This document shows, piece by piece, positions 5,411 through 37,667 of a stretch of 38,836 nucleotides of DNA. Under the pieces are notes generated by a model. The model was not told the origin of the DNA. It worked only from the letters and a program-made list of their open reading frames with translations, and ran no database searches. Made by a program: the position numbers and the translations under genes. The DNA is taken from the IMG/VR virus record IMGVR_UViG_3300015171_000013, positions 1 to 38,836 of that record; one strand, 5' to 3'. Numbering within the stretch: position 1 is the stretch's first letter; every line of letters begins with the position of its first letter. Source of the stretch: a virus.

Positions 5411-8400
5411 GCCGCAATCCCTGCCGCCACCACGGCACCCCTGACTGCACTTCTTCCAATGGCGTTTTGGCTTGCCGCTTGACCGGAGTTCCGAGCGGCA
5501 GGCCGAGCGTCTTTTCATCCGACTTCTTCCGGTCGATCTGCTCAGCGCCCCACGACATGCCAGCGGGAACGACGGCGGATTTGAGTTGCGAGCCGAGGAA
5601 CTGCTGCCGCTCTCTCTCCTTGCCGAACAGCTTTGATACTTCCGTGGTTTCCTTCACGAACGGCACTTCTTCAGCGAGGCCGAGCCCAGCCTTCGCCATC
5701 CCCTCGACGGCGTTACCCTTCGGAGCGTTCATCGCCCGCCGCATGGTAGCCCCGATCTGAAGCATTTCCAACAGCGGATTGTGGACGAGGTACTTCGGCA
5801 CATCGGCACCGGCCACGCGCAAGCCACCCACAGGAACGTCCCCAGGACGGCGGCGTTCGTCGGGATCGTAATAGCCACCCGCTTGGAAGAGTTGGGAGCC
5901 GCTTCCCTTTGAACCCGCGGTGAAGAAGCCGACAGCCAGGGCAGCGGCCCCGAGGCTTCCCTTCTGGAGTTGCCGCATAATCATGTCGGCTTGCTCTGGA
6001 GGAAGGTTCTCGATGCCCTTGGCGTAGGCCCGGCCCAATTGGACTGAGCCAGTAAGAGCCCCGGTCGCATAGGTGAACGACTCGGCCACAATGTTGGTCG
6101 GCACCTTGATGATCGGCAACAGGAACTTACCCGCGGTCGCCAGAGCCTTACCGCCGACACTGGCTTTGCCCGTGAGTGGGTTCGGCCGTTCGAGCGATTG
6201 GATGCCACGTTGCCACGCATCGACCACGCGGTTGTCTTGCATGAAGATCGACCGATCCGCGGCCTTCAGCGACTCGGTGAGGATTCGGGTTTGCACCACG
6301 GGATCGGTGGGGTCGATGCCGTTCTCGACGGCCCAGGCGTTGCCCTTCGTCATGGCCCGCGCAAAGGCCGCTCGCTTCACCGGAGCCTTCAAGGCCCCGT
6401 GGATGTTGCCCAGGAGATCGAGCCAGCCCTGTGGCATGGAAACCTTCTGGCCGAGAACGTCCATCTCGGTCTTTTTCATTCGCAGCATGTCGATCGAGTC
6501 TTGTAGGCCCTTGGTAAAGCCGTCCGTGAGGGCTTTAGACTCGGCCTCGACGTTCAGGCCGGTTTCGAGCATGGCCCGGCCACGGAGACCAGGGAGGGCT
6601 TTGCCGATGACGGAGCCAACGGCTTCCTCAATCGGTGTGATGCCGAACCGAGCGGCCCCGGCGCTGGTGAGCTTGGCGATCACGACTGGCGAGGAAAGGA
6701 CGAAGGCTCGGCGGACCTTCAGGAAGACGTCTTGCACCTTCTCGTTGAGAGGCTTGGTGGCCCAGCGGTCGCCGGCCATGTCAGACTGCCACTTCTGCTT
6801 CACGCGAGCGAGTTCGGTGTTGATCGGGACGTCTTTCTTTTCGCCGATCCATCGTCGGGCCTTGTTCGGGGTGATGGTCTCGCCCTTGTCGAGTTGATCC
6901 TGGAGTTCCTTGATCCGCTTGTGCATCTCCAAGACGGCTTTCTCCTCGGCCTCGGTGAGAGGCTTCCCTTTGGCCGCCTCTTTCTCCAGCGTCATTCGAG
7001 CCAGGGAGAAATCCTCTTTAATCATCATCTTGCGAGCGTTCAACGCGCCGCCGAGCGCGGAGCCGCCCTGCCGTAATACTTGATCGACTTTGAGGAGTTG
7101 GTCGGCCAGGACAGCGGAGCGAAGCCGCAGACTGAGTTGTTCGGAGGCGTCCTTAGATTCGTGGTAATTGTGGAGAACCCGGTCGTAGTCATTCTGGGTG
7201 GTGATCCGTTCGTGAAGGACGATGGCTTGATGGACTTCACTCTCGAACGCACGGGGCCGAGCGGCGTAATCGTCCACCAATTGCTTGCCGAGTTCGGGAT
7301 TCTGTTCGACTTGCCGCTTGGCAGTGTCCCAGACTTCTTCCCACCCTTTGCGCGCGACCTTCTCGATCGGCTCGAAGCCGCGTTCGGCCCGCTCGGCATC
7401 CACCTTGGCATTCTTCGCTCCGTGGAGTTCTTCGCCGACTCGTTTCACGTTGGCCTGGGCGCGTTCCCAGATGTCGGACAGGTGAGGCCGTATCTCTTCG
7501 CCGAACCGCTTCACCGCGTCGGCTGTGAACTGGGCGATGGTGTAGCCGGTGGTAATGATCTTTCCGGCCACATACTTGGCGAGGGAGGGAATGATCGTCG
7601 GGTCGAAGCCGGAGAAGGCGATGCTGCTGCCGAGCTTCTTCTTGAGTTCGGCGGCCCCTTCGTCGGCTAATCGCTTTCCGAAGTCGTAGAGGGGGTCTCG
7701 TCGTTCGGTTCCTGGGAGTTCTCCATCGGTGCCGGAGGGTTCAGGTCGGCCGAAGTCGCTGGGGTCGAAGTCGGCATTCCCCCCGAGATGTTCTTCCGAG
7801 AGGTCGCCTTCCGGAGATTCTTGAAGTCCGGCCTCGGCAGAGGGGGCAGACCTTTCGCCGACAGGAGCCGATTCAGTTCCGCGTGTTTCTTCCCCGCGAG
7901 TGAAAGCCGCATCAGAGGCTTCGGCAGAGAACCCAACAGTTTTGGCAGCCTTGGCCGCTTCATAATTTTCCCTTTCAGTTACGAGTTTTAACAGGGCGAG
8001 TTGGTGGCCTTCCTCGGCCGTCATGAGTTCCGGTCGGCCTTCGTTGTGGAGTTCGAGCAGCTTGGCCTCGGCGTCTTCGCCCTTGAAGAACTGCGGCCAT
8101 TCCTCGGCCATCTGTTCGGCCACGTCGTCGGAGCCTTTGATCTGATCTTCGAACTGCTGGCCTCGGCCGGACTGGCGGTTCGCCTGGGCCATGCGATGCT
8201 CTTTGCCGAACTCGTCGAGTCGGCCCATCATGTCGTCGTACATCTGCTGTTTTTCGCTCAGGTACTCGTTGGCCTGTTTCAACACGTCCTCGGTCTCGCC
8301 CCGGAGATGGGCCGGGTCGATCCCGTTTTGAACGGCGCCGGCATCGAACTCCTGTTGCTGCTGAACGAGTTGATCGCGATTGATCTTCGCCGTCTCGGCT

Positions 8401-11400
8401 GCGCGTTCGCCGGCCCGCCGCCGCGCGAGTTGCTTCGGTGTCATCTTCGCTTCTTCGGCCGCCTTCTTGTCCGCCTTGGCTTTCTCCCGTGCGGCCGCCT
8501 TGTCGGCTTTCTCTTGCGACTTCGCTGCGGCCTTTGCGGCGTCTCGCTCGACGATCCGCTGCTGGAGGGCCAATTGATCCGGCGTTAGCTGACTAGGTTT
8601 CTCGTTCAGTATCTTTTCGATGCCAGCCCAGACATTGACTGCCGGCTGAGCGTTCTCTGGCGACTGAGCTTGAACATTGTTCACTCCTCTTTCAGAACTG
8701 GCCCATTTATACGCAAATCCGATTTCTCCATCAAAAACGCGGGGATTTTGAACGTCGGGGCGGTTCTTCAAGTACGCCTCAATCCTGCCGAGCGTGTCGG
8801 CGGCGATACTGCCTTTCTCGAATCTTACAAGCGTATCTGGAGTCGCCTGAGTGTTGCGAGTTGAGTTCAAAAACCCGCGACTGCCAGTCGTCTCGATACC
8901 CAGTTGGTGAAGGGTTTTAATCACGCCTTCAACCTGCGGTTCAGGAGTGTAGTCAAGCCTGCGGCCGCTTAGCTGACTACCGGCGGCCTCACTCCGAACG
9001 CCTGGGGAACTCGTATTCCCAGACTGGTCGGCTTCGCCGGGACTGGGGGCTTGGCTTCCCCCTTCAGGTGGGGCGGCGTTTGGGTTCCGACCAATTGCTT
9101 GACTCTCAACTGGAGCCGCAGGACTCGGAGCTTCCGCTTGAACGCGCTCGACACCGCCACGTCGAAGGGATGTCGTGAGCCTACGTCCGTAAGTATGTTC
9201 GTCGGCATTGTCGCCTTCCTCCATTTCTCGTTGCGCTTTGGCCAGTTCGCGCATGGCCTCGGCTGGGTCTGTGATGGCCTGGGTATCGTCCGCAATCCGG
9301 TCTACCGGCTTCAACAACTTCTCGATCGCCTCAATCTGGGACTTCACGGTGTCGAGGTCGGCGTCTGCTGGGTCCGCCTCGACGGGCTCGAATGCTCGGG
9401 GGGCTTCTTTCGCATATTTCGCAAGGTCGGCCGGATCCATGAACGACACGCCTTTCACCGGGGCCTCGGCCAGAGCCTTTTGCCATTCAGCCATGCTCTT
9501 GTGACCGACTCCCAGCTTGGCCATCGCCTTGGCCTCGACGTAAGACACGGAGCCGGGGTTTTTGGCCTTGGCGTTGCCTTCTCTCGCATGAAGCCGCTGG
9601 AACTCGGGATTGTCGAGGATTACCCGGTGGGAGTTGCCCTTGGCCATTTCTTCGAGGACGAGCCGTTCCTTGGCCGACAGCTTGGCGTTGTCGAACGCGG
9701 CCTTCATTTCCTCGGGAACCACGGAGTCGCCGACTCGCTTCCGGGTTTGGACGGAAAACTCGGGGTGTTGCTTGTTGAACTCCTCGACGGAGAGTGGTTC
9801 CGGCTTCGGGGCCGGTGGTTCGGCCTGGGGTGGCTCTGGGGCCGGTTCAGACGGCTTCACTGGCTCTGGGGCCGCAATCGTCTCAGGAACCGGGGCTTTC
9901 GTCTCACCGGGACGGCGAATCTTAATCGCCATCTGTTGTTGTTCGCTGGTGGCGTTCTTTCTCGCCCCGGTGGTGCGGAGGCCGGTGATCTCCTTCGCTT
10001 CCGGGTACTGCTCGGCCACCTGATCCAGAATCGACCGCACCGCGGATCGGCCCAGGCGGTTGGCCGCCTTCTGGCTCGTGTCCCGCAGGCCCATCCACTC
10101 GATATGAACCTGATCGCCCTTCGGGATAATCGTGACGTCAGCTATCTCTTTGCCTTCGGCGTCGGTGACGACATGGGTGAAGAGGCCGCCCGGCTCGGCC
10201 GGCTTCAACTTCACTTCCTTCGGCCCGTGGTCGGCCCGGCGTTCATTGGCCATCTCCGGGTTGTCCTTGGCCACCCCTTCTTCGAGCCAGGATCGAGTCT
10301 TGGCGTCCATCGCCTTGATGTCCTTGACCTTCATCCCCGTGGCCTTGGCAATTTCTTCAAGATGCTGCTGGCCCTCGGGCTTGAGCCTGGGGGCCAGTTC
10401 CGGCGTCGGTGGCGTCGGCTCCGGGGCTTTCGCCGGTTCAGGGGCCGATTGACCCCCTTGGGACTGAAGCTCGACCAATCGAGCCTGGACCGACTTTGCG
10501 AAGGCCCCTTCCGGGTTGAGGCCATCGAGCACCCCTTTCTCACCACTGAGAATCCGCTGCGCGTAGCCGTCCACCTTCTCCTTGGCAGCATCGCCGATTC
10601 CTTTACCGAGGTTCCCGAATACCTCTTCGATGCCTTTGGCCTGGGCTTCCGGCGTCTGTGGCTGCGATACGGGCGGTTTCGCCGCTTCGGTCGGCGTTTG
10701 GGCCGTCTCAGACGCCGGGGCCACATCTGGCGGCGGGGGCGGGGCTTTGGCTTGTTCGGCCGCGAGAGCCGGAACGTCCATCGCCTTGGATTGGGAGTCG
10801 ATGTATGCCTTCGCCCGAGGGGACAGGGCTTTGTAGATCCTCTCGGATCCCTTTCCCTGAATAAGGTCCATGATGACGGAGTTTGCCTTCAGCGTTTCGC
10901 TATAAGCCGCCTTCTCGGAGAAGCCGCTGCCCTTCAGATCGCCGAGCAGCTTCGAGCCGTTCTCCATGATCGCCTTGCTGCTGTCGGCTGAGCCCGTCCG
11001 GCTCGAATGCGCGGCGTTGAATAGAGCGAAGGTCACAAGCTGCGACAACGCGTTGCGACCCGAGCCTTCTTTTCCCTGCATAAGCTCGACGGCCGTGCCG
11101 TAGCCCTGGTGGCCCCAAACCGGGAATTGGCTCGTGAGGACGCCATTGGTAACGTCGATCCCCGCTTGACCGGCCAGGGCCGTTCCGGTGCCAGCCAGGA
11201 ACCGAGTCGCTTGCCCTCTGATCGTGCTTTCGGTCAGAGCGGGAAGAAGTTTTCCGGCAGTGGCTGACGCTGGCCCCTTGCTCGCGATGCCAAGGAGGCC
11301 GACTTGCATCATGCCCATGCCGTAGGCTGGCCCCAGGTTCTCGACATCGCTCCAAGAACCGCCCTTCTGGATCGCGTGTTCGGCCGAGGCCGGAAGGTAC

Positions 11401-13914: not shown

Positions 13915-15267
13915 CTAAGCAGGTTCCATGATAAGCCAGTTAAAATTACTGCTGTCCAAAACGTTCGACGAATTCACCACGAAAGACGTTCCGGCCGTGA
14001 CGGTGCCGACCGAGAGGGAGCCGATGTTCGCGAACACTCCCCCACCGGCATCGGAGAGGAAGATCAGAGAAGAAGAAGTTACTGCCGTGGTCGATACCGT
14101 AGCCGTTCCACCAGCCAGCGTTCCCGTGCCCATCTTACAATTGGAGCCGGTCTTGATCGAGAGACCTTTCCCGGCCGTAATAACCGACACTTGGCCGTTA
14201 ACCCCCAGGAGAGCGCCATTGGGGTCTACGGCCCCACCAATGCCGACGAGAGCCGCAGAGCCGGTGGCGTCAACGCGGATTGCTTCACGGCTTGCTGTAT
14301 CGTATACGTTGATTTTTCCACGGGTTTTTCGTGTTGCATCGGTGGAATCAATCCACTCCCACGTCATCCACAAAGCATCGCGGTTTGACGTTGTGGACGA
14401 ACGCAATTTATTCTCAATAGCACCGCCAAAGCCGTTTGCAACAGAAGTATTCGTGTTGTCTTGCGAGTTTACAACAGTTCCTACTATGGCGTTTGTCGTC
14501 GCCGTGTTTGCCTGTATCGTAAGCCGGGCTGAATCAAGAGTTGTTGTGCTGCCGACAATCATATTGTCAGAAAACGAGACCTGACCAATCGTGCCTGGGT
14601 TCATCTGCATCCTGACGACGCCGGGCGTAATCCACCGGAAAATGCCGCCGTTATTGTCAATCTGCCAGTTCTGGGCTGCCGTACCGTTGGCAAAAAGTAC
14701 GCGATACGTCCCGGAAGCGGTGCCAATATGAACCCCCGCTACTGTCGTCGTTTCAACAATCGCCCCGGTTGCGAGTATTTCCCCCTGAAACGTCTGCGGC
14801 CCAGTTGTGAACGTGTTCGCCACATTCGTAAATACATCGCCAACCGCCGACCCGGCCACCACGTTCGACAAGAGACCGTTGCCGTCGATCGTCACCGTCG
14901 CGTTGGCGTAAGTTCCGGCCAAGATCGAGGCCACCGGGGTAATTACGGTCGGGACGTAGACCGAGCCGTTCCACACGGGGGCCTGTCGGCTTGCAGTCGG
15001 ATTTAGAAGCACGGGGGACGCTGGGACCGAGTAAGCCGGCGAATGGGCCGCAATCACCGTTGTGGCGTTTGCAAGGCCCGTCGTCCCAAGAGGCGAGGCC
15101 GTTAGAAGGATGATCTGGCTTGTGGTCGGCTTCCAGAACACGTCGGCCAGGACGCCAGCTGCAAGCAGTTCCGTTTGAAGCTGATCGCCATTGGGGGCCG
15201 ACGCTGCAGCAAACGCGGTTGCTGTCAGAGTCGGCCCAAAGATCGTCGGTGGAGGAATAGCGGCCAT
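13915..15267 (-). CDS. tail fibre protein
   Basis: 450 residues. It is rich in Thr, Ala, Asn and Gly with repeating short strands, as in trimeric fibre shafts. The middle has a beta unit starting near residue 190 (GTYRVLFANGTAAQNW). The C-terminal 100 residues (ITAGKGLSIKTGSNCKMGTG ... GTSFVVNSSN ... NFNWLIMEPA) match a terminal domain found at the tips of many phage fibres and tail-associated proteins. Fibres bind the host surface. The ribosome-binding site is weak, so expression may depend on the upstream gene, which ends four bases away. Confidence 0.75.
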   Translation of the reverse strand: MAAIPPPTIFGPTLTATAFAAASAPNGDQLQTELLAAGVLADVFWKPTTSQIILLTASPLGTTGLANATTVIAAHSPAYSVPASPVLLNPTASRQAPVWNGSVYVPTVITPVASILAGTYANATVTIDGNGLLSNVVAGSAVGDVFTNVANTFTTGPQTFQGEILATGAIVETTTVAGVHIGTASGTYRVLFANGTAAQNWQIDNNGGIFRWITPGVVRMQMNPGTIGQVSFSDNMIVGSTTTLDSARLTIQANTATTNAIVGTVVNSQDNTNTSVANGFGGAIENKLRSSTTSNRDALWMTWEWIDSTDATRKTRGKINVYDTASREAIRVDATGSAALVGIGGAVDPNGALLGVNGQVSVITAGKGLSIKTGSNCKMGTGTLAGGTATVSTTAVTSSSLIFLSDAGGGVFANIGSLSVGTVTAGTSFVVNSSNVLDSSNFNWLIMEPA

Positions 15268-24876: not shown

Positions 24877-25212
24877 TCACGCTTGGCCTTTGAGGTTTCG
24901 TTCGAGCAGCTTCGGATTGACAGGGCCGACCGGAATCTGAAGGCCAGCCGCCTCGGCCCGTATCTTGGCTTTCATCTCTTCCTCGAAAGCCGCCTGCATC
25001 GCTTCCCGCTCGGCCTGGAACCCAGGCTTCTTCGCCTCGATCATACCCGCAATCGTCTTGCAGTCATCGCCCTGGGCCACAGCCTCGGCGATGAGTTCCA
25101 TCGCCTCCGACACGGCCGTTTTGCCAGATCGGTCAGGAATGTGCGGGTAAAGCAATGCAGCGATAAAGGAGATCAACTGCGGTTCTGGAAGCGTCGTGAT
25201 AAGCTGATTCAT
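24877..25212 (-). CDS. hypothetical helical protein
   Basis: 111 residues. Helical: PQLISFIAALLYPHIPDRSG at the N-terminus, then a long charged helix (EREAMQAAFEEEMKAKIRAE) that could form a coiled coil. It is the first gene after the terminator at 25233 and starts the membrane-gene group. No family recognised. Confidence 0.6.
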   Translation of the reverse strand: MNQLITTLPEPQLISFIAALLYPHIPDRSGKTAVSEAMELIAEAVAQGDDCKTIAGMIEAKKPGFQAEREAMQAAFEEEMKAKIRAEAAGLQIPVGPVNPKLLERNLKGQA

Positions 25213-25232
25213 TCGCCGGCTCCTGAAAAGAA

Positions 25233-25259
25233 CGAAGGACGGCGATTTGCCGTCCTTCG
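25233..25259 (-). terminator. rho-independent terminator ending the head-gene block
   Basis: Perfect eleven-base-pair stem (CGAAGGACGGC / GCCGTCCTTCG) with a five-base loop, followed on the minus strand by TTCTTTTC. It lies 37 bases after the stop of gene 25296-25682. It marks the end of the capsid-to-virion-protein transcription unit. Confidence 0.8.
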
Positions 25260-25295
25260 CATCCTATCCACCGTTTTGTCGGTAGCAACAGCGAA

Positions 25296-25682
25296 TTAGA
25301 CGGCCACGGTCCAACTCACCAGCTTACCGTCAATCGTGATCGTCGTGAGCGTGTTCACGGTTGCGATGTAGAGCCGCATCGTGAAGCCGGCCACGGTTGT
25401 GGTGCCGGTGATCGTGACACCCGTTCCACCAGCCAGTGTAATCGCATTGGTGGTGACGACGTTGCCGAGCAGAATGGCCCAGGTCTGGCCGACTTGAAGG
25501 TTCGCGTCCGCGATCATCTGAGCCGCGGTTCGAGTCGTAAGGGTGCCAGGGGTGGCTCCGCTATTCAAAGCCACGCAGAGCGCGGAGCCGGTCAGATAGC
25601 CAGCAGCCGCAGTCGAGCCCGACAGAATGGCTGTGTTGTGCTGGATCGAATTCAGCGGCACATTCAAGTCATTCAGCATCAT
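25296..25682 (-). CDS. beta-rich virion protein
   Basis: 128 residues, ATG after GGAGCTTTTGCC. Thr/Ala-rich strands with a run that includes NAITLAGGTGVTITGTTTV. This strand-turn pattern (T-L-A-x-G-x-G-V-T-x-x-G-T-T-T-V) is common in small phage capsid- or tail-associated proteins. The C-terminus is beta (LVSWTV). It lies just before the terminator that ends the head block. The virion role is inferred from location and composition. Confidence 0.6.
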   Translation of the reverse strand: MMLNDLNVPLNSIQHNTAILSGSTAAAGYLTGSALCVALNSGATPGTLTTRTAAQMIADANLQVGQTWAILLGNVVTTNAITLAGGTGVTITGTTTVAGFTMRLYIATVNTLTTITIDGKLVSWTVAV

Positions 25683-29734: not shown

Positions 29735-30781
29735 TTACGGGTAAGTCGTTCCAGTCGCCAGAACGAAGTTGCGGCGACGGTCCTTGCAGATGAACTGATA
29801 CCCGAAATCGTAATGCGTCACGGCGACGGTGTGTTGGTCGTTCTTCTGGGGAATGACAGTCTGACGATTCCACCATCCGTTGAGGATGTAGGTTTTCATC
29901 ACACCCCAGTTGATGCCGTAGAAGGGGCCGGTGGTGTCCGCGTCGAGTTGCGGCACATAGTTCACCGGCACTTTGCGAAACAAGGTCCGACCATCGAAGG
30001 CCGCCAGATCGTAGCCGATGTTTTCGTTCTGCGCCTTGGCCAGCGATTCCAACTGCCCGATCACCGAGTAGTTCGAATAGAAACCGTAGGTGTCGCCTGT
30101 GTTGAACGTCGGGATGCCATCGACCGGCGGTTTGAAAGCCGTCTTGGTAGCCGCTTCACGAGCCTTGGCAACGAAATCATCTTCCGTCACGAGCGAGTAT
30201 TGACAGCCCCAGTTTTGCCATCGCGGATACGTCGTCGGCGACACGTTCGCAACGAGCGAATAACCGCTTGGGATACCGCCGAGGAAGCCGCCTGTCGTGT
30301 TCGAGGTTTTCGTCACCCAGTAGGGCAAACCGAAGGGTGTTTTCGCATCGGAGGCCGAGGGGAAGTTCCACCAGTTTTGCTCCATCTTCAGAGCGGTGGA
30401 AATCATGCAACGGATACGCCGCGTGAGAACCAGATCGACGATCCGGGCCGGTTCCCGGTTCATATCCACTTCACGCGCATCGACGGCGAAGTTGTTGGTG
30501 AGCCACCGCCACGGGGCCACGCCCTGGATCATCCCGTCCGAGATGTCCACGATGTCGGGCTCCATGAGGCCGACGTTTCGAGCCGAGTTCGAGTGATCGA
30601 TCATCAAGTCCCACTGGACCTGTGTGCCGCTGCTGAGCTTCACTTGGTTCTTGCTCATCAGCTTCGACATGGCCGTGAGTTCTTGGAGATCGGTTGCGAT
30701 TTCCGTGAACTTCCCACGTCCGAGTTCCCGGAGTGTGACCTGTAACAGATCGCCGAGTTGTTCGGCTTGGAGCGTCGGCAT
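29735..30781 (-). CDS. major capsid protein candidate
   Basis: 348 residues, ATG preceded by GAGGACTTTCC. N-terminal helix with LGDLLQVTLRELGRGKF, then WDLMIDHSNSARNVGL; conserved-looking central strands (RRIRCMISTALKMEQNWWNF, FGLPYWV) and a C-terminus with VKTYILNGWW-like and YQFICKDRRRN segments. Size, position after a scaffold-like gene and before the adaptor, and the alpha/beta composition fit an HK97-fold capsid protein. The exact fold is inferred. Confidence 0.75.
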   Translation of the reverse strand: MPTLQAEQLGDLLQVTLRELGRGKFTEIATDLQELTAMSKLMSKNQVKLSSGTQVQWDLMIDHSNSARNVGLMEPDIVDISDGMIQGVAPWRWLTNNFAVDAREVDMNREPARIVDLVLTRRIRCMISTALKMEQNWWNFPSASDAKTPFGLPYWVTKTSNTTGGFLGGIPSGYSLVANVSPTTYPRWQNWGCQYSLVTEDDFVAKAREAATKTAFKPPVDGIPTFNTGDTYGFYSNYSVIGQLESLAKAQNENIGYDLAAFDGRTLFRKVPVNYVPQLDADTTGPFYGINWGVMKTYILNGWWNRQTVIPQKNDQHTVAVTHYDFGYQFICKDRRRNFVLATGTTYP

Positions 30782-30797: not shown

Positions 30798-31880
30798 TTA
30801 CATTTCTGGGAAATCGTCAGGCGAGGCATACTCTCCGGGCTCGCCTTCCGGTGCAACGCCGTTGGTTGCCAGGAAAGACTTCACCGCGCGAGTGGCCCTT
30901 CGTTCGCCCGGTTGGTCCGCCGGAGCTTCACGAGCGGTCGGCTGCATCAGGCCGCCACGGTTCCACTGTTCGGCTGTGAATTGGCCCGTTGCGGGGTTTC
31001 GAGCGGGCGCTGGTTTTGCGGGTGGGGAGGGGTCCCCACTCGCTGGCTTCGCGATGCCGCCATAAAGCAAATCTGCCGCTGTTTCCAGGCTTTTAAGCAC
31101 ACTTTCGAGCGGAGCCTTGTCGCCGGCCATTCGCCGCGCTTCGTTGAAGATAGCAAGACGCTTTGACCATTCCGGGGCGTTGTTGGCTGGTCGGCCCTTG
31201 CCGACGATGTGTCCGTATTTCTCGGCGAGCTTATCGAATCCACGGTCGATGTGGCTGGTCACAGTGTCAGTCTGCCGCTGGCCTTCGATCTGTTCGAATG
31301 TGGCCACCTTTGCCTTTAGGGACCGGATTTCTTTCTGGGTTTCGCGGAGAACGTGAACGATGACGGGATGAATTTCTTCTTCATCGACCGGAACATCCTT
31401 TCCAGCCGCATCCTTCATCGTCATGCCGCCAAAATCAAGCTTCTCCACCTGAGGAACGACTGGCTGCTTGTTGTCCACGGCCTTTTGGGCGGTGTCGCTG
31501 GCTCGGTTCTGTTGAGCGTTCGCCATTCGCTGGCGGTTCATCCAATACACGCGATCGTCGAGTACCGCTGGTTCCGTTGCCTCGATGTCAGCCTGGGTGA
31601 AGCCGAAGTCAGTGGCCAAGCGTTTCGTGATTTCGTTGTGGACGTGCTTCTTCGGTTCGGTCGGCTTCTCGGGCAGAGCAGGGGCCAACGGCGTAGCGCC
31701 CGCCGCCGACCCCTTGCCCGGTGCAACCGGCGAAGGTGCTTCCATTAACTGATCGTCGGCATATTGGTTTTCGATGTCCGAGATGTCGTACTGATCGACG
31801 AGTTTTTCGAGGGCCGACTTCGGGGCCTCGATTGGAGGCGGGGCCGAGGCTTGAACGCTGCTGGTGATCGGTTCTGACAT
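30798..31880 (-). CDS. scaffold-like protein
   Basis: 360 residues from the ATG at 31880 (GGGGAAATCAA just upstream; an earlier in-frame start would run into the upstream hairpin). Acidic and Pro/Ala-rich ends flank a helical, charged centre (ETQKEIRSLKAKVATFEQIE, about residues 180-200, then a predicted helical domain). Such acidic, helical proteins directly before the capsid gene are usually internal scaffolds or portal-associated assembly chaperones. No protease domain is seen. The hairpin at 31920 lies just upstream. Confidence 0.65.
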   Translation of the reverse strand: MSEPITSSVQASAPPPIEAPKSALEKLVDQYDISDIENQYADDQLMEAPSPVAPGKGSAAGATPLAPALPEKPTEPKKHVHNEITKRLATDFGFTQADIEATEPAVLDDRVYWMNRQRMANAQQNRASDTAQKAVDNKQPVVPQVEKLDFGGMTMKDAAGKDVPVDEEEIHPVIVHVLRETQKEIRSLKAKVATFEQIEGQRQTDTVTSHIDRGFDKLAEKYGHIVGKGRPANNAPEWSKRLAIFNEARRMAGDKAPLESVLKSLETAADLLYGGIAKPASGDPSPPAKPAPARNPATGQFTAEQWNRGGLMQPTAREAPADQPGERRATRAVKSFLATNGVAPEGEPGEYASPDDFPEM

Positions 31881-31919
31881 TTGATTTCCCCATTCGCCGG
31901 TTGAAGAAAACTGGGGCAG

Positions 31920-32020
31920 CCGCAAAACGAAAAAAGCCGCCGAGGGGTCGAGCCCTCGACGGCTTACGTTTTGCGGCCCCCATTCCTACGGATGCCTCCG
32001 CAGGGTGAGTTGCCCTATCA
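31920..32020 (-). promoter_or_regulatory. candidate leader with switch-like alternative pairings upstream of scaffold-capsid genes
   Basis: On the minus strand a short hairpin-rich leader (32020 to 31977) is followed by a long hairpin (31976-31920). The CCGCA on the minus strand at 31976-31972 can pair either with TGCGG upstream (32002-31998) or with TGCGG downstream (31924-31920). Mutually exclusive pairings just ahead of a terminator are how attenuators and riboswitches work. The ligand and the class are unknown; this rests on complementarity by eye only. Confidence 0.35.
31934..31965 (-). terminator. terminator/attenuator hairpin before the scaffold gene
   Basis: A 13-position stem with one mismatch (AAGCCGCCGAGGG / CCCTCGACGGCTT) and a six-base loop, followed on the minus strand by a run of T (TTTTTTCG). 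An outer ten-base stem (CCGCAAAACG / CGTTTTGCGG, 31920-31929 with 31967-31976) encloses it. It lies 53 bases upstream of the scaffold start, so it would stop readthrough from the right or be conditionally bypassed. Confidence 0.65.
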
Positions 32021-32106
32021 AGTTGATTTCAATGTTACATCGCCTTCGGAGAGTTGGCAAGGAGAAATCTGATCGACATGAACAAACCATGCAGCGTCAC
32101 CCAGAC

Positions 32107-32518
32107 CGGAGAGCGCACTTACCCCGGAAAATCCGGGATAAGTGAAGTCAGCGTACACCCTGGACGGAGCCGCGACTTCCCGTGTGCATTATTGTTTACG
32201 CTGTCCCACGGGTGAACCCCTCTGCAGCGCCCCTAGCAGTCCATGCGAAACTTCCGCATGGACTACACTCGGCTGTCTTTAGCCTTGCTCGATACGGGGA
32301 AAGCAGCCATCCTACAGTCGGCCCAAACTGTCCCCGATGCCCGCAAGCCCGTTCGGAGAAAACACGGCTGCCCAACCTGGGGCTATGTGAAATCTTGGGG
32401 ATTGTGCTTGTCAGCCAGAAGTGAGCGGCCTAACATGAATTTGGCGAGTTCATGTGTGCCGGAAGCTCACTTCGAACCAGAAAGCAGCCAGTCCCCAAAG
32501 ACTGGCTGTTTTCGTTTC
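32107..32518 (+). ncRNA. candidate structured non-coding RNA
   Basis: Within a 637-base gene-free stretch, about 400 bases hold a chain of hairpins: 32116-32144 (12 bp, one mismatch), 32179-32212 (six bp), 32238-32264 (10 bp, perfect), 32271-32284 (4 bp), 32295-32336 (6 bp outer stem), 32418-32473 (nine bp outer, then GGC/GCC and seven bp inner), and a terminator at 32485. Open frames here are not protein-like. The U-tract after the last hairpin is stronger on the plus strand, hence the strand call. No Rfam family is recognised by eye. No convincing promoter seen. Confidence 0.4.
32485..32512 (+). terminator. rho-independent terminator, plus strand
   Basis: Nine-base-pair perfect stem (CAGCCAGTC / GACTGGCTG) with a six-base loop and a plus-strand tail of TTTTCGTTT. 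It lies directly against the stop of the minus-strand gene 32518-32799. The minus-strand tail (CTTTC) is weaker, so plus-strand termination is more likely, though some use by the gene on the minus strand is possible. Confidence 0.7.
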
Positions 32519-32799
32519 TACGCTTTGGCTGCGGCGGCTTCAAGGGCTTCCGTCTTGGCCGCTTGGCCTTTTTGGTATGGCATCCATTCGCAATAGTTGT
32601 CGTCGGGAACCTCGTCGCCGTCCTGGATCAGTCGGACATTTTCGTAGCCACGCGGAACGCCGCCTTCGCTGATTGCCATGACGTTGATGATGGACGGCGT
32701 ACTCACTTTGCAAACGTGCGCCGCCAGTGGCCCCTTGTGTCCAGAATTTGGAACGTACAGGTAAAACCACACCACGCGGCCAATTGTCGGTTCGATCAT
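32518..32799 (-). CDS. small phage protein, moron-like
   Basis: 93 residues, ATG preceded by GAGGAGACCGGCG. It begins IEPTIGRVVWFYLYVP and has a beta-rich core (PLAAHVCKVST, INVMAIS) with an acidic middle (DGDEVPDDNYCEWMPY) and an Ala-rich tail. The P-T-x-G-R-V-V-W/Y opening is one I recognise from small phage proteins of unknown role. It sits alone between hairpins 32485 and 32823 within the late block, which is how lysogenic-conversion or exclusion genes (morons) are often arranged. Confidence 0.65.
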   Translation of the reverse strand: MIEPTIGRVVWFYLYVPNSGHKGPLAAHVCKVSTPSIINVMAISEGGVPRGYENVRLIQDGDEVPDDNYCEWMPYQKGQAAKTEALEAAAAKA

Positions 32800-34005: not shown

Positions 34006-35844
34006 CTACCTCATTTGCGGTTGCCCGCTGTTGGGATTCCCGCCGGGGTTCGTCCCCAGCAAGGCTTGCATCTCCGCTTTGTTCTTGCCGAGCGGTGTCA
34101 CTTCGCTTCGGTTCTCGCGGATGTTGGTTCTTGTTGTATTGGCCGGCATCCCAGGTTGGTCGCCCCCTCCACCTCCACCACTGCCTTGGTCGGCCGGCGG
34201 CTCCTGAATCGTCATCAGTTCCCCGATGTCTGGATTCGCGAGATACTTGCCCATCTTCGAGAGGTAGGCGTGCATGTCGAATGTGATGCCTTGCTGCTGG
34301 AGCAACTGGGCCATCGGCATCACGACTTGTTGAACTACGTTGTTCATCGCCGTGAGCCGCGCTTCCGGCGTCTGGTGCTGGAACGAGTACGGATCGACGG
34401 CTACTTCCAGATCATCCCACTTCGTCTTTTGCCGGTCTTGCGGCGTCACATTCGACTGAGACCACACATCCGGTACGCCCTTGACCGAGACCTTTGTTTT
34501 CATGTCGAGGGCGGGGTGATACCACCAATACCAGCACAGCGAATTGAAGAGGCCGCTTGTGAACGACGTGGTGGCCTTTTGCATGGCCGCGACGTGGCCC
34601 GAGGAATTCGCTTCGAGCATCTTATCCTGAGTCGCCGTCTTGGCCTGGGGTGAGAGGCCGCCGAGCGAGTCGAGGTTTCCCGCCAGCCAGGAGAAATCTT
34701 CCTTGAGTTTGATGCTGAACGCCTGGAGGGTTGGGTTGGGACCGCCCATCGAGACGACCTTCAGCTTATCGGGGTTGTCCACTCGAAGAATGTCGCCATC
34801 GTTCGCGTTCATTACCCGGTTGCCGTCCGCATCGGCCCCACCCTGAACAAACACCATTTCCTTCAGCCGAGCCGACTGACGGAGCAACTTGCGGTAAACG
34901 TCGTTGATCGCCTTGTGGAGCGGCACCAAGTCTTGGATGGGGGCCTTGGGCATAATGTTGCCGGGAACGACTCCGTAGCCGAGAACGTGGTAAGGGCCGC
35001 AGTCTGGGCCGATCCACTCTTGCTCGCCGAGGGGATCTTCGTTCTGGTTTGGGTTGCCGCCGTCGTCTGAGCAGAGGGTCAGAATCTTCCGAGCCCTCGG
35101 CACATAAATCTCCCACAAGTCCACGAAGTCGTCGTACTCTTCCGAGTCGCCGCCCTGATACCCGAGGCCGAGCCTGACGATCCGCTCGACGCCTTCGGGA
35201 CTGAATGGTTTGTCGGTCGAGACCGCCAGATCCTTGGCCTCTTTACCAAACCTCTCAATGGCCGCGTCCTTGTGGACGCGAAGTCGGTGGCCGAAGAAGC
35301 CGACCTCTCGGAAATCTCTCGCGTGGAAGTCCCACACGGCATCGTCGAGGTCGATGGATCGGAGGTAAGGATAACCGGCCGGAAGGTTGTAACCCAAGAT
35401 TGAAGCGTCGGCTGTGGTGGCCAGGGCGACCTTGCCGATGCCGATTCCGAATAACGCATCGATCACGATTCGCTCGATCGTCTTGTCGAGTTCTTGTTTG
35501 ACGATCTGCTTGTTGGCCCAGTCCTCCATGCGGGCGACCGTTGGAACCGAGGCCCGGTCGAACGTGGAGAGCATGACACGGGGTTCTTCGGGAACAAGCG
35601 TTCGGGAGATGATGGAAATGTAAGTGGCCAGAAGATTTACCGGCACATCCCGCTCGGCACCTTCCTCAGCCCAACCGGCCCCGACGTACTGCCTGACCGC
35701 TTCTCGCCGCAGATCACGCGGCCTCCGCAGGGCGAGCCCAGCATGGGTGATTGCCTTGCAGAGACGGGGAATATCGATGTCGGTGGGACTGGCTTTTTTG
35801 AACTTGCGAGGGGCGGGTGGCTTCTGTGCGCGATTGGCGATCAT
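34006..35844 (-). CDS. portal protein
   Basis: 612 residues from the ATG at 35844, which overlaps the TerL stop (ATGA); a TTG two codons upstream is less likely. An N-terminal helical region, then a long alpha/beta core with WANKQIVKQELDKTIERIVI, RSIDLDDAVWDFHARDFREV, DLWEIYVPRARKILTL, LVPLHKAINDVYRKLLRQSA, a helix with FSIKLKEDFSWLAGNLDSLG and a C-terminal Gly-rich, disordered tail. Size, position after TerL and pattern match podoviral-type portals, which form the dodecameric DNA entry vertex. Confidence 0.85.
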   Translation of the reverse strand: MIANRAQKPPAPRKFKKASPTDIDIPRLCKAITHAGLALRRPRDLRREAVRQYVGAGWAEEGAERDVPVNLLATYISIISRTLVPEEPRVMLSTFDRASVPTVARMEDWANKQIVKQELDKTIERIVIDALFGIGIGKVALATTADASILGYNLPAGYPYLRSIDLDDAVWDFHARDFREVGFFGHRLRVHKDAAIERFGKEAKDLAVSTDKPFSPEGVERIVRLGLGYQGGDSEEYDDFVDLWEIYVPRARKILTLCSDDGGNPNQNEDPLGEQEWIGPDCGPYHVLGYGVVPGNIMPKAPIQDLVPLHKAINDVYRKLLRQSARLKEMVFVQGGADADGNRVMNANDGDILRVDNPDKLKVVSMGGPNPTLQAFSIKLKEDFSWLAGNLDSLGGLSPQAKTATQDKMLEANSSGHVAAMQKATTSFTSGLFNSLCWYWWYHPALDMKTKVSVKGVPDVWSQSNVTPQDRQKTKWDDLEVAVDPYSFQHQTPEARLTAMNNVVQQVVMPMAQLLQQQGITFDMHAYLSKMGKYLANPDIGELMTIQEPPADQGSGGGGGGDQPGMPANTTRTNIRENRSEVTPLGKNKAEMQALLGTNPGGNPNSGQPQMR

Positions 35845-37667
35845 GCCCAAACCTCTTCGCGATACCTTCGCTCAACCTCTTGGCGTCGGCCCGCAAGCGA
35901 ATTGTACGGGATTTTTTGCTCCATTGCCTGCTTGGGTCTCCGCTCCTTCGCCTTCATCAGCAGCCACAACATCGCATCCGTGATTACCCGGTCCCCGTGA
36001 TTCTTCCTCGCGCCCGAGGGATCCTCTGGGCTTCTTTCCTCGGATGATGATTCGTGGCCGGTGGCCGGATCGAACTTGAAACTGTCGCACTGCCGCAGCG
36101 CGGCCTCCGAGGGATTGATGAACTGCCGGGCGAATAAAGCCGTCCGATACTGGAGCAAGAGATCGTCCTTGGTGTCGAGCGTGTTGTTCCACCCGAGGCT
36201 TTCCGTCACCCGGTCGGACAGCTTGTCCTCTCGCACTCGCTTCCACAAATTGCGGTAGCCGAGTTCCAAGACCTTTGCTCCGAAGAAGATGCCGGGGCCA
36301 GGGATTTCCCAGACCAACTCTGCGCCTTCTCCGCTTTCGTCCACGAACAGCCGGCAGATCGCAACCACCAGCACCGCGAACTGTTTCGGATCGAGCCGCG
36401 GGGTGATGAGTTCGCCGACCTTCTCGTTGGTGTCCAGGTTCCCCAGCGAGAGACAGGACGGCGTGGCCCCGCTGCCCTGCGACAGATCGCAAGCGGCCCC
36501 GTACTTCCCGAGCGGCACCTTACCCAGGTACGTCGGGTTGATCCACAGCTTCAAGGGGCCGCCCACCCGCGCCACCAGCCGATCCGGCAGCCCGGCGTCG
36601 ATGTCGTAAAGCAGATCGCCTTCCCATTCGGGATTGCGAGCGTAATTGCTGATGAGGTCCATGATAGTCAGCGGATCGAACGACTGGGCCACCGAGCCGG
36701 CCGGGTTGATGTCCAGGTGCATGGCCACATCCCGGACGTTCTTGCGGCGGATCACTTCCTTGTCGTACCACGGGGACCGAATCCCCGGCCGCGCACCACC
36801 GATCGGCGTCCCATCCGTGACAAACCTGTAATCCGGTGCAAACGCATAATGCTTGTCGATCGCTTCGTAGCCGCCCCTTGTTCCGGACTTGTAAAGGCCC
36901 TTGGCTTTGTCCGGATGCTGCGACCAGTGCATGATGATCTTCCGCAAATCCGGCCGCTGCGTGAGCGTGTGGTACGTCGTCCCGATGCCGTAATGGGTGC
37001 CGATGAACAACCGCGGCCCGGTGTCTGCCGTCTGCCCCAGGATGTCCTCGGCGTTCTGTTGCTTCGAGAATTCGTCGAGCAGCACGAATGCCGCCCGGTC
37101 GCCAACGCCAGACCGGCCCGTGGACGCGAGACCGGCGATGCCCGACGTGCCGCGGAAGTCGAACGACAGCTTGCGCCGCCTCACCCGCCGCTTGAGCCAG
37201 TCCGGCAAATACTTCATGATGAAATCGATCTTGGCGAACAACGTGCCTTTCTTGCCCGCCTTATCGACGGCCTCTTCCGAGTGGGAAATGCAAAGGACCA
37301 ATTTGTTGTCGTGGAAGAGGCAGAGCCAGATCGCGATAATCAGGGCCAGCCATGTGGCCCCCATTTCGCGGGACTTCTCCCAGAGAATGTCGTCCTGATC
37401 CTCGAACAGTCGGCTCATCGTTTCGAGGAGTGCTTCATCCTGCCACTCCCACGAAATGAATGGCCCAATCTCGCTTTCGAGGTCCTTCGGGTTAATCTGC
37501 CACACAAAGGCGTTGATGAAGAAAAGAATGTCCCGCTTGCACATCTCGATCAAACCGCGCTGGATGTTGCGGTTATCACGGGCCTCGGTGAGAAGCCCCA
37601 CGCGGAACTTGATATTGGCCAGCTTGTCTTTCGGAACCGACTTGTGCCACTGGCCCGGTGAGAACAC
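35841..37667 (-). CDS. terminase large subunit
   Basis: 608 residues, GTG start after GAGGATAGGCC. The ATPase has a Walker-A-like K98-S-R-E-M-G-A-T105, a Walker B with L-L-D198-E199 and a coupling region GTHYGIGTT (223-231). The nuclease domain has acidic D394 (GAACDLSQGSG), E454 (LVWEIPGPG) and D559/D564 (GDRVITDAMLW), the usual RNase-H-like three-carboxylate set. It drives DNA into the prohead through the portal and cuts at headful or cos ends. The small-subunit candidate is coded upstream at 38316. Confidence 0.95.
   Translation of the reverse strand: MFSPGQWHKSVPKDKLANIKFRVGLLTEARDNRNIQRGLIEMCKRDILFFINAFVWQINPKDLESEIGPFISWEWQDEALLETMSRLFEDQDDILWEKSREMGATWLALIIAIWLCLFHDNKLVLCISHSEEAVDKAGKKGTLFAKIDFIMKYLPDWLKRRVRRRKLSFDFRGTSGIAGLASTGRSGVGDRAAFVLLDEFSKQQNAEDILGQTADTGPRLFIGTHYGIGTTYHTLTQRPDLRKIIMHWSQHPDKAKGLYKSGTRGGYEAIDKHYAFAPDYRFVTDGTPIGGARPGIRSPWYDKEVIRRKNVRDVAMHLDINPAGSVAQSFDPLTIMDLISNYARNPEWEGDLLYDIDAGLPDRLVARVGGPLKLWINPTYLGKVPLGKYGAACDLSQGSGATPSCLSLGNLDTNEKVGELITPRLDPKQFAVLVVAICRLFVDESGEGAELVWEIPGPGIFFGAKVLELGYRNLWKRVREDKLSDRVTESLGWNNTLDTKDDLLLQYRTALFARQFINPSEAALRQCDSFKFDPATGHESSSEERSPEDPSGARKNHGDRVITDAMLWLLMKAKERRPKQAMEQKIPYNSLAGRRQEVERRYREEVWA

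Follow-up and report, generated by a model that had tools for sequence, protein, structure and literature searches.

A gene-free stretch rich in hairpins lies among the head genes of a 38.8-kb virus contig, which raises the question of whether an RNA is made there, from which strand, and what such an RNA might do. The contig (IMGVR_UViG_3300015171_000013, positions 1-38,836; all 38,836 nucleotides constitute the window analysed here) had been examined once before, and the preliminary description placed a candidate structured noncoding RNA of unrecognised class at 32107-32518, proposing either an independent plus-strand transcript or a long leader on the minus strand. As that description held, the neighbouring genes are all read from the minus strand, with the terminase (35841-37667) followed by the portal (34006-35850) and small head genes, and these by the gap, the scaffold and the putative capsid. 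The gap itself, 31881-32517, separates the first two of the following genes.

32518-32799, minus strand: 93-aa gene directly upstream of the gap, with a weak phrog_2293 match and of unknown function
30798-31880, minus strand: scaffold-like gene of 360 aa on the 3' side of the RNA; in relatives, its homologues lie directly before the capsid gene
29735-30781, minus strand: putative major capsid protein, 348 aa, a role assigned from position and conservation

The terminase is an ordinary large terminase with matches to phrog_2 and phrog_5989. ARAGORN found no tRNA genes in the window. Portal and capsid alignments used as profile queries recovered dozens of related contigs and one related locus in a Candidatus Brocadiaceae MAG. 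Because of this locus, the hosts of the phage group are probably members of Planctomycetota.

The absence of genes from the gap is borne out by a codon model with the phage group's long frames as its training set, which detects no coding signal on either strand of 31881-32517. With these codon scores negative for all frames except the tails of neighbouring genes, a hidden gene is ruled out; moreover, the gap and its homologue in a second phage (see below) differ by single-base indels and by substitutions without codon periodicity. We also confirmed that the hairpin-rich gap is real and that its structure goes beyond chance. Relative to dinucleotide shuffles, the fold of 32100-32270 has a z-score of about -3.9 on either strand, and that of 32100-32478 scores -2.8 on the plus and -3.8 on the minus strand, compared with a mean of -0.45 (sd 1.2) for other 400-nt tiles of the window. 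The tile 25200-25600 is also strongly folded (z -3.8 plus, -4.5 minus), and a 12-bp terminator-like hairpin lies inside it at 25260-25232.

A homologue of the putative RNA resides at the matching genomic place in another phage, L065 (IMGVR_UViG_3300047509_000077, ~6034-6443), where it is positioned between the g153 homologue and the scaffold gene. The two sequences share 73% identity over 354 nt (blastn, E 4e-56). The terminase, portal, g153 and capsid of the window and L065 exhibit 49-53% protein identity and 61-63% DNA identity, so that no other DNA in the region common to the two phages is as well conserved as the non-coding stretch. The 3' neighbour of the RNA in L065 is a 107-aa gene that differs from that in the window.

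We modelled the secondary structure on this pairwise alignment (A7), and the model comprises 62 pairs in ten helices. Eleven of the pairs are changed on both sides and none is broken, with all cells of the alignment paired. A count of double changes this high was reached in none of 500 shuffles, and slid-partner controls give 0-4. Because the helices were chosen on the A7 alignment itself, the percentage paired is a biased measure, and the evidence is carried by the double changes. The RNA and its elements are as follows, where G554 denotes a bacterial chromosome described below.

32089-32513, minus strand: conserved structured noncoding RNA of ~425-430 nt, with its 5' end near 32513 and its 3' end near 32089, indicated by the L065 homologue, the lack of coding potential and an architecture common to the G554 copies
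32092-32438, minus strand: core that blastn aligns to L065
32485-32508, minus strand: P1 hairpin with the conserved apex CUUUGGGG; both phages keep the apex and the stems differ, and the conserved unit of the G554 copies begins with its counterpart
32418-32473, minus strand: P2 nested hairpin, outer 9 bp and inner 7 bp; same architecture in L065 with other sequence
32370-32383, minus strand: P3 hairpin GCCC-caggtt-GGGC, preceded by the invariant AAGATTTCACATA in the alignment; a GCCC/GGGC hairpin occurs in G554 too
32349-32367, minus strand: P4 hairpin CCGU/ACGG, invariant across both phages
32284-32347, minus strand: helix CUUGC/GCAAG (A-U to G.U in L065) around helix CGGGGA/UCCCCG (32295-32336)
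32236-32266, minus strand: variable hairpin, 11 bp in both phages, 7 of the 11 pairs changed on both sides
32198-32230, minus strand: pseudoknot stem S1, GCGCUG (32230-32225) with CAGCGU (32203-32198); GCGCGG/CCGCGU in L065 and GCGUGA/UCACGU in G554
32179-32212, minus strand: pseudoknot stem S2, CCCGUG (32212-32207) with CACGGG (32184-32179), crossing S1; CCCGGA/UCCGGG in L065 and CGGGG/CCUCG in G554
32151-32173, minus strand: P8, the most conserved element, GCGGCUCCGUCCAGGGUGUACGC
32116-32144, minus strand: P9 hairpin with a 12-bp stem, paired through U.G; sequence changed in L065, pairing kept
32098-32115, minus strand: P10 hairpin CGCUC/GGGUG
31934-31965, minus strand: strong intrinsic terminator between the RNA and the scaffold gene, a 13-bp stem followed by TTTTTTCGTTTT

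The clearest compensation is seen in the variable hairpin at 32236-32266, which includes the perfect 10-bp stem (32238-32264) noted previously; the nested hairpin P2, with both of its perfect stems, likewise proved to be as first described. Stems S1 and S2 cross to form a pseudoknot, and compensatory changes occur in each. Over four sequences, three of the six S1 pairs vary on both sides and all remain paired. Invariant blocks, such as CCCCAAGATTTCACATAGCCCCAGGTTGGGC, also run through the alignment of the two phages. The preliminary description had held that a lack of compensatory changes along with no RNA signal, or else a coding signature, would speak against an RNA; compensatory changes are present and there is no coding signature, and both outcomes are in the RNA's favour. 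Its range of 32107-32518 is indeed structured, but the true feature is larger, running from ~32513 to ~32089, and the terminator at 31965-31934 falls outside that range.

The pattern of substitutions favours the minus strand as the RNA strand, and the late genes of both phages are read in that direction too. In the modelled helices, one-sided substitutions keep pairing as G.U on the minus strand only, and three G.U pairs are retained in four of four sequences. The conserved core folds with a z-score of -3.05 on the minus and -1.57 on the plus strand. Since the helices had been selected on the minus strand, the comparison leans somewhat towards it. Isolated mismatches within each sequence did not distinguish the strands, and so the strand call is founded on the between-sequence G.U pattern and on the fold scores. 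The 12-bp stem originally reported at 32116-32144 is present, but it is continuous on the minus strand only, where it contains a U.G pair in place of A.C on the plus strand.

A third lineage was found with a covariance model (R1) built from the two phage sequences only, which was scanned against 392 genomes of the phylum and 398 genomes of one class within it. Two matches (31.8 and 27 bits) occur in one 9.38-Mb chromosome, G554, of the phylum Planctomycetota. Their E-values, from shortly calibrated covariance models, are 5.6e-7 and 2.1e-5 per genome, with ~4e-4 such matches expected by chance over the ~790 genome scans. The matches share GTCGCGGCTCC.TCCAG.GTGT.CGC and CTGGGT..CGC, and both copies form the same pseudoknot, in the same order, from the other letters listed above (with a manual alignment of S2 in G554). 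The 3' half of the RNA is covered well and the 5' half weakly; a model of the 5' half (R2) gives a weak match of 6.3 bits at the expected place, and homology of this half between the phage RNA and G554 is likely.

Comparison of the two G554 copies with each other defines their limits. Their identity, 44% before the first hairpin, rises abruptly to 98% there, remains at 88-100% to ~L137:1734 and declines after L137:1734-1790, which delimits a stand-alone unit of ~520-610 nt in this chromosome. Because the downstream genes differ between the two copies, no particular downstream gene is needed. The copies sit in a repeated unit of ~1.5-1.9 kb, in which no transposase or integrase was seen. A capsid profile found no capsid homologue of the phage group in G554, although an empty answer of this kind by itself shows little. 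The minus-strand leader offered earlier as an alternative comes closer in its choice of strand, but it does not fit these chromosomal copies. A small gene (~65-90 aa, MPPSKMKRTRAERREQLERLR...; L141:7560-7922 and L142:8140-8502) is duplicated along with the RNA on the opposite strand; it matches no family and has no equivalent in either phage. No protein partner of the RNA was found. Both copies also have a second block of 86-94% identity 3' of the RNA unit (L137:1935-2183) with no clear reading frame, which may represent a further RNA or the end of an element.

The carriers found are thus two phages and one chromosome. Covariance searches of the loci of dozens of related phage contigs revealed no detectable copy, and so the RNA is not essential to the phage group. 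A four-sequence covariance model (R3) yielded no other member in further searches, and BLAST searches against phages (window and L065) and plasmids (L065) gave no match. When three invariant blocks were searched as DNA motifs in viral contigs, L065 was the sole true member and the other matches were due to chance. A match in genome G254 (21 bits, E 7e-4; one match in the 392 phylum genomes) was judged from its alignment to be chance as well. A 33-nt match in genome G540 (L144:1498-1530, CCCCCGGACGTTTCCAGCGTCGCGGGGG) is a P1-like GC-rich hairpin upstream of an integrase-like gene and probably reflects a widespread kind of hairpin and not the RNA.

Among related contigs, the structured gaps in L010, L021 and L049 were considered as members and rejected, as there is no detectable homology, in L049 even with filters off. 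In L042 and L052 the gaps were set aside because they resemble unannotated coding sequence, with signal-peptide-like starts. The L049 gap (6264-6951) is a 688-nt non-coding structured stretch (z about -4) at the equivalent position, with a terminator that carries the TTTTTTCGTTT tail of the window's terminator.

Rfam cmscan, run on the window, L065, the G554 loci and ten relatives, returned nothing credible at the gathering threshold or at permissive ones (E up to 5-10 for the window, L065 and G554), and the initial view that the RNA belongs to no recognised class holds. Specifically, there was no match to the covariance models for GOLLD, ROOL or OLE in the window, L065 or the G554 loci, and none to group I or II introns or HEARO at Rfam thresholds; the RNA is placed between intact genes. 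GOLLD and ROOL RNAs, whose function is unknown, are large and pseudoknotted and occur in phages and prophages, where tRNA islands often lie close by (PMC12286853). An abundant ~800-nt RNA of vibriophage ICP1, a phage without tRNAs, has been compared with them (PMC7567579). By model match our RNA lies outside the GOLLD and ROOL families, but it may work like them; it too is a large, elaborate, conserved and pseudoknotted noncoding RNA of phages and bacterial chromosomes (PMC12286853, PMC7567579), a likeness in manner of working only. It is smaller (~430-520 nt, compared with more than 800 for many GOLLD RNAs) and resides in a capsid operon within a window that has no tRNA, whereas proximity to tRNAs is frequent for GOLLD and ROOL, if not obligatory. 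The ICP1 RNA, located between gp139 and gp140, resembles it as a large phage noncoding RNA in ORF-less space without tRNAs; however, the ICP1 transcript has been demonstrated by RNA-seq and adjoins the lysis cluster (PMC7567579), and its sequence was compared here through the general phage BLAST only.

By computation, the RNA is non-coding, lies on the minus strand, is better conserved than its coding neighbours and has a pseudoknot with compensatory changes in three lineages, and in one bacterial chromosome it is a stand-alone, duplicated unit. The explanation we consider reasonably likely is that these sequences represent a new family of large (~430 nt), pseudoknotted, stable noncoding RNAs, read from the minus strand, as are the late head genes, and probably acting in trans. 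The RNA would be made from the late transcript by processing or termination, with its 3' side bounded by the terminator at 31965-31934, and it would work late in infection as a folded RNA or an RNA-protein particle, as is supposed for GOLLD and ROOL. Action in trans is argued from the G554 copies, because they need neither capsid genes nor a particular downstream gene. Weighing against this reading are the small number of carriers, the weak match of the 5' half in G554, and the fact that neither an obvious promoter directly upstream of the RNA nor a protein partner was found. More tentatively, and with somewhat less confidence than doubt, we suggest that this undescribed class, common to phages and a planctomycete-phylum chromosome and borne in a capsid operon, serves as a ribozyme, scaffold or RNA particle acting in trans in virion assembly or host takeover.

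The main rival, though an unlikely one, is a cis element of the late transcript that acts by put-like antitermination past the terminator at 31965-31934 or as an attenuator of the scaffold and capsid genes. This strong terminator lies 55 nt ahead of the scaffold gene with no promoter-like site recognised between them. The capsid gene must therefore be expressed either by read-through or from a promoter that escaped recognition, which is why a cis role stays in contention. Terminators of this type are rare among relatives, yet L049 combines a structured gap with a similarly tailed terminator at the equivalent place. The putRNA of phage HK022 is likewise a structured RNA of a phage transcript upstream of a terminator (PMC9378689), but put acts in cis in early genes. 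Our RNA, in contrast, has stand-alone chromosomal copies with differing downstream genes, and in L065 it is present with a different gene downstream and no counterpart of the terminator. In addition, known put elements are far shorter than the RNA described here.

The other rivals fare less well than a cis element. The patchy distribution, and the presence of both G554 copies inside a repeated unit, would fit a mobile or selfish element that encodes an RNA, has entered both phages and the chromosome, and is of no service to the phage. Such an origin seems improbable for a sequence that occupies the equivalent position in both phages, is conserved above neighbouring essential genes, matches no group I or II intron or HEARO, and is accompanied by no visible transposase or integrase in the repeated unit. 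A packaging RNA of the phi29 pRNA type, to which a phage-encoded structured RNA tied in position to the head and packaging module bears some likeness, is highly improbable. The RNA differs from pRNA in size and has no match to that family model, the terminase is an ordinary large terminase and not a phi29-type packaging ATPase, the RNA is patchy among relatives that share the packaging genes, and G554 has copies where no capsid homologue of the group was found. Equally hard to credit is the independent, antisense plus-strand RNA of the preliminary description. The hairpin at 32485-32508, which that description read as its terminator and a simple scan lists as a minus-strand terminator-like site, is present and is followed on the plus strand by TTTTCGTTTC, making a fair terminator. 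However, it is P1, a part of the conserved unit, its L065 counterpart lacks a good T-run on that strand, and both the G.U asymmetry and the core fold scores favour the minus strand.

If the RNA is indeed a family separate from GOLLD and ROOL, whose function is unknown, then it adds one that is located in the capsid operon of a Planctomycetota-linked phage group and has a chromosomal version. Its pseudoknot core is defined and its boundaries are testable, and the capsid-adjacent location together with patchy presence among relatives provides a natural comparison of phages with and without it.

Several further observations concern the relatives and the remainder of the window. Very strong folds lie just upstream of a small head gene in L010 (9906-10246, z -5.6/-8.5) and L021 (7641-8104, z -9.8/-9.7), and these gaps are possibly other RNA families at the equivalent locus. 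In the relative L019, a structured gap (9379-9827) directly precedes an HNH-endonuclease-like gene (9828-10460). Elsewhere in the window, the protein encoded at 13915-15267 has a C-terminal K1-lyase_C domain (PF24146, E 1.6e-17), which suggests a tail-spike-like protein.
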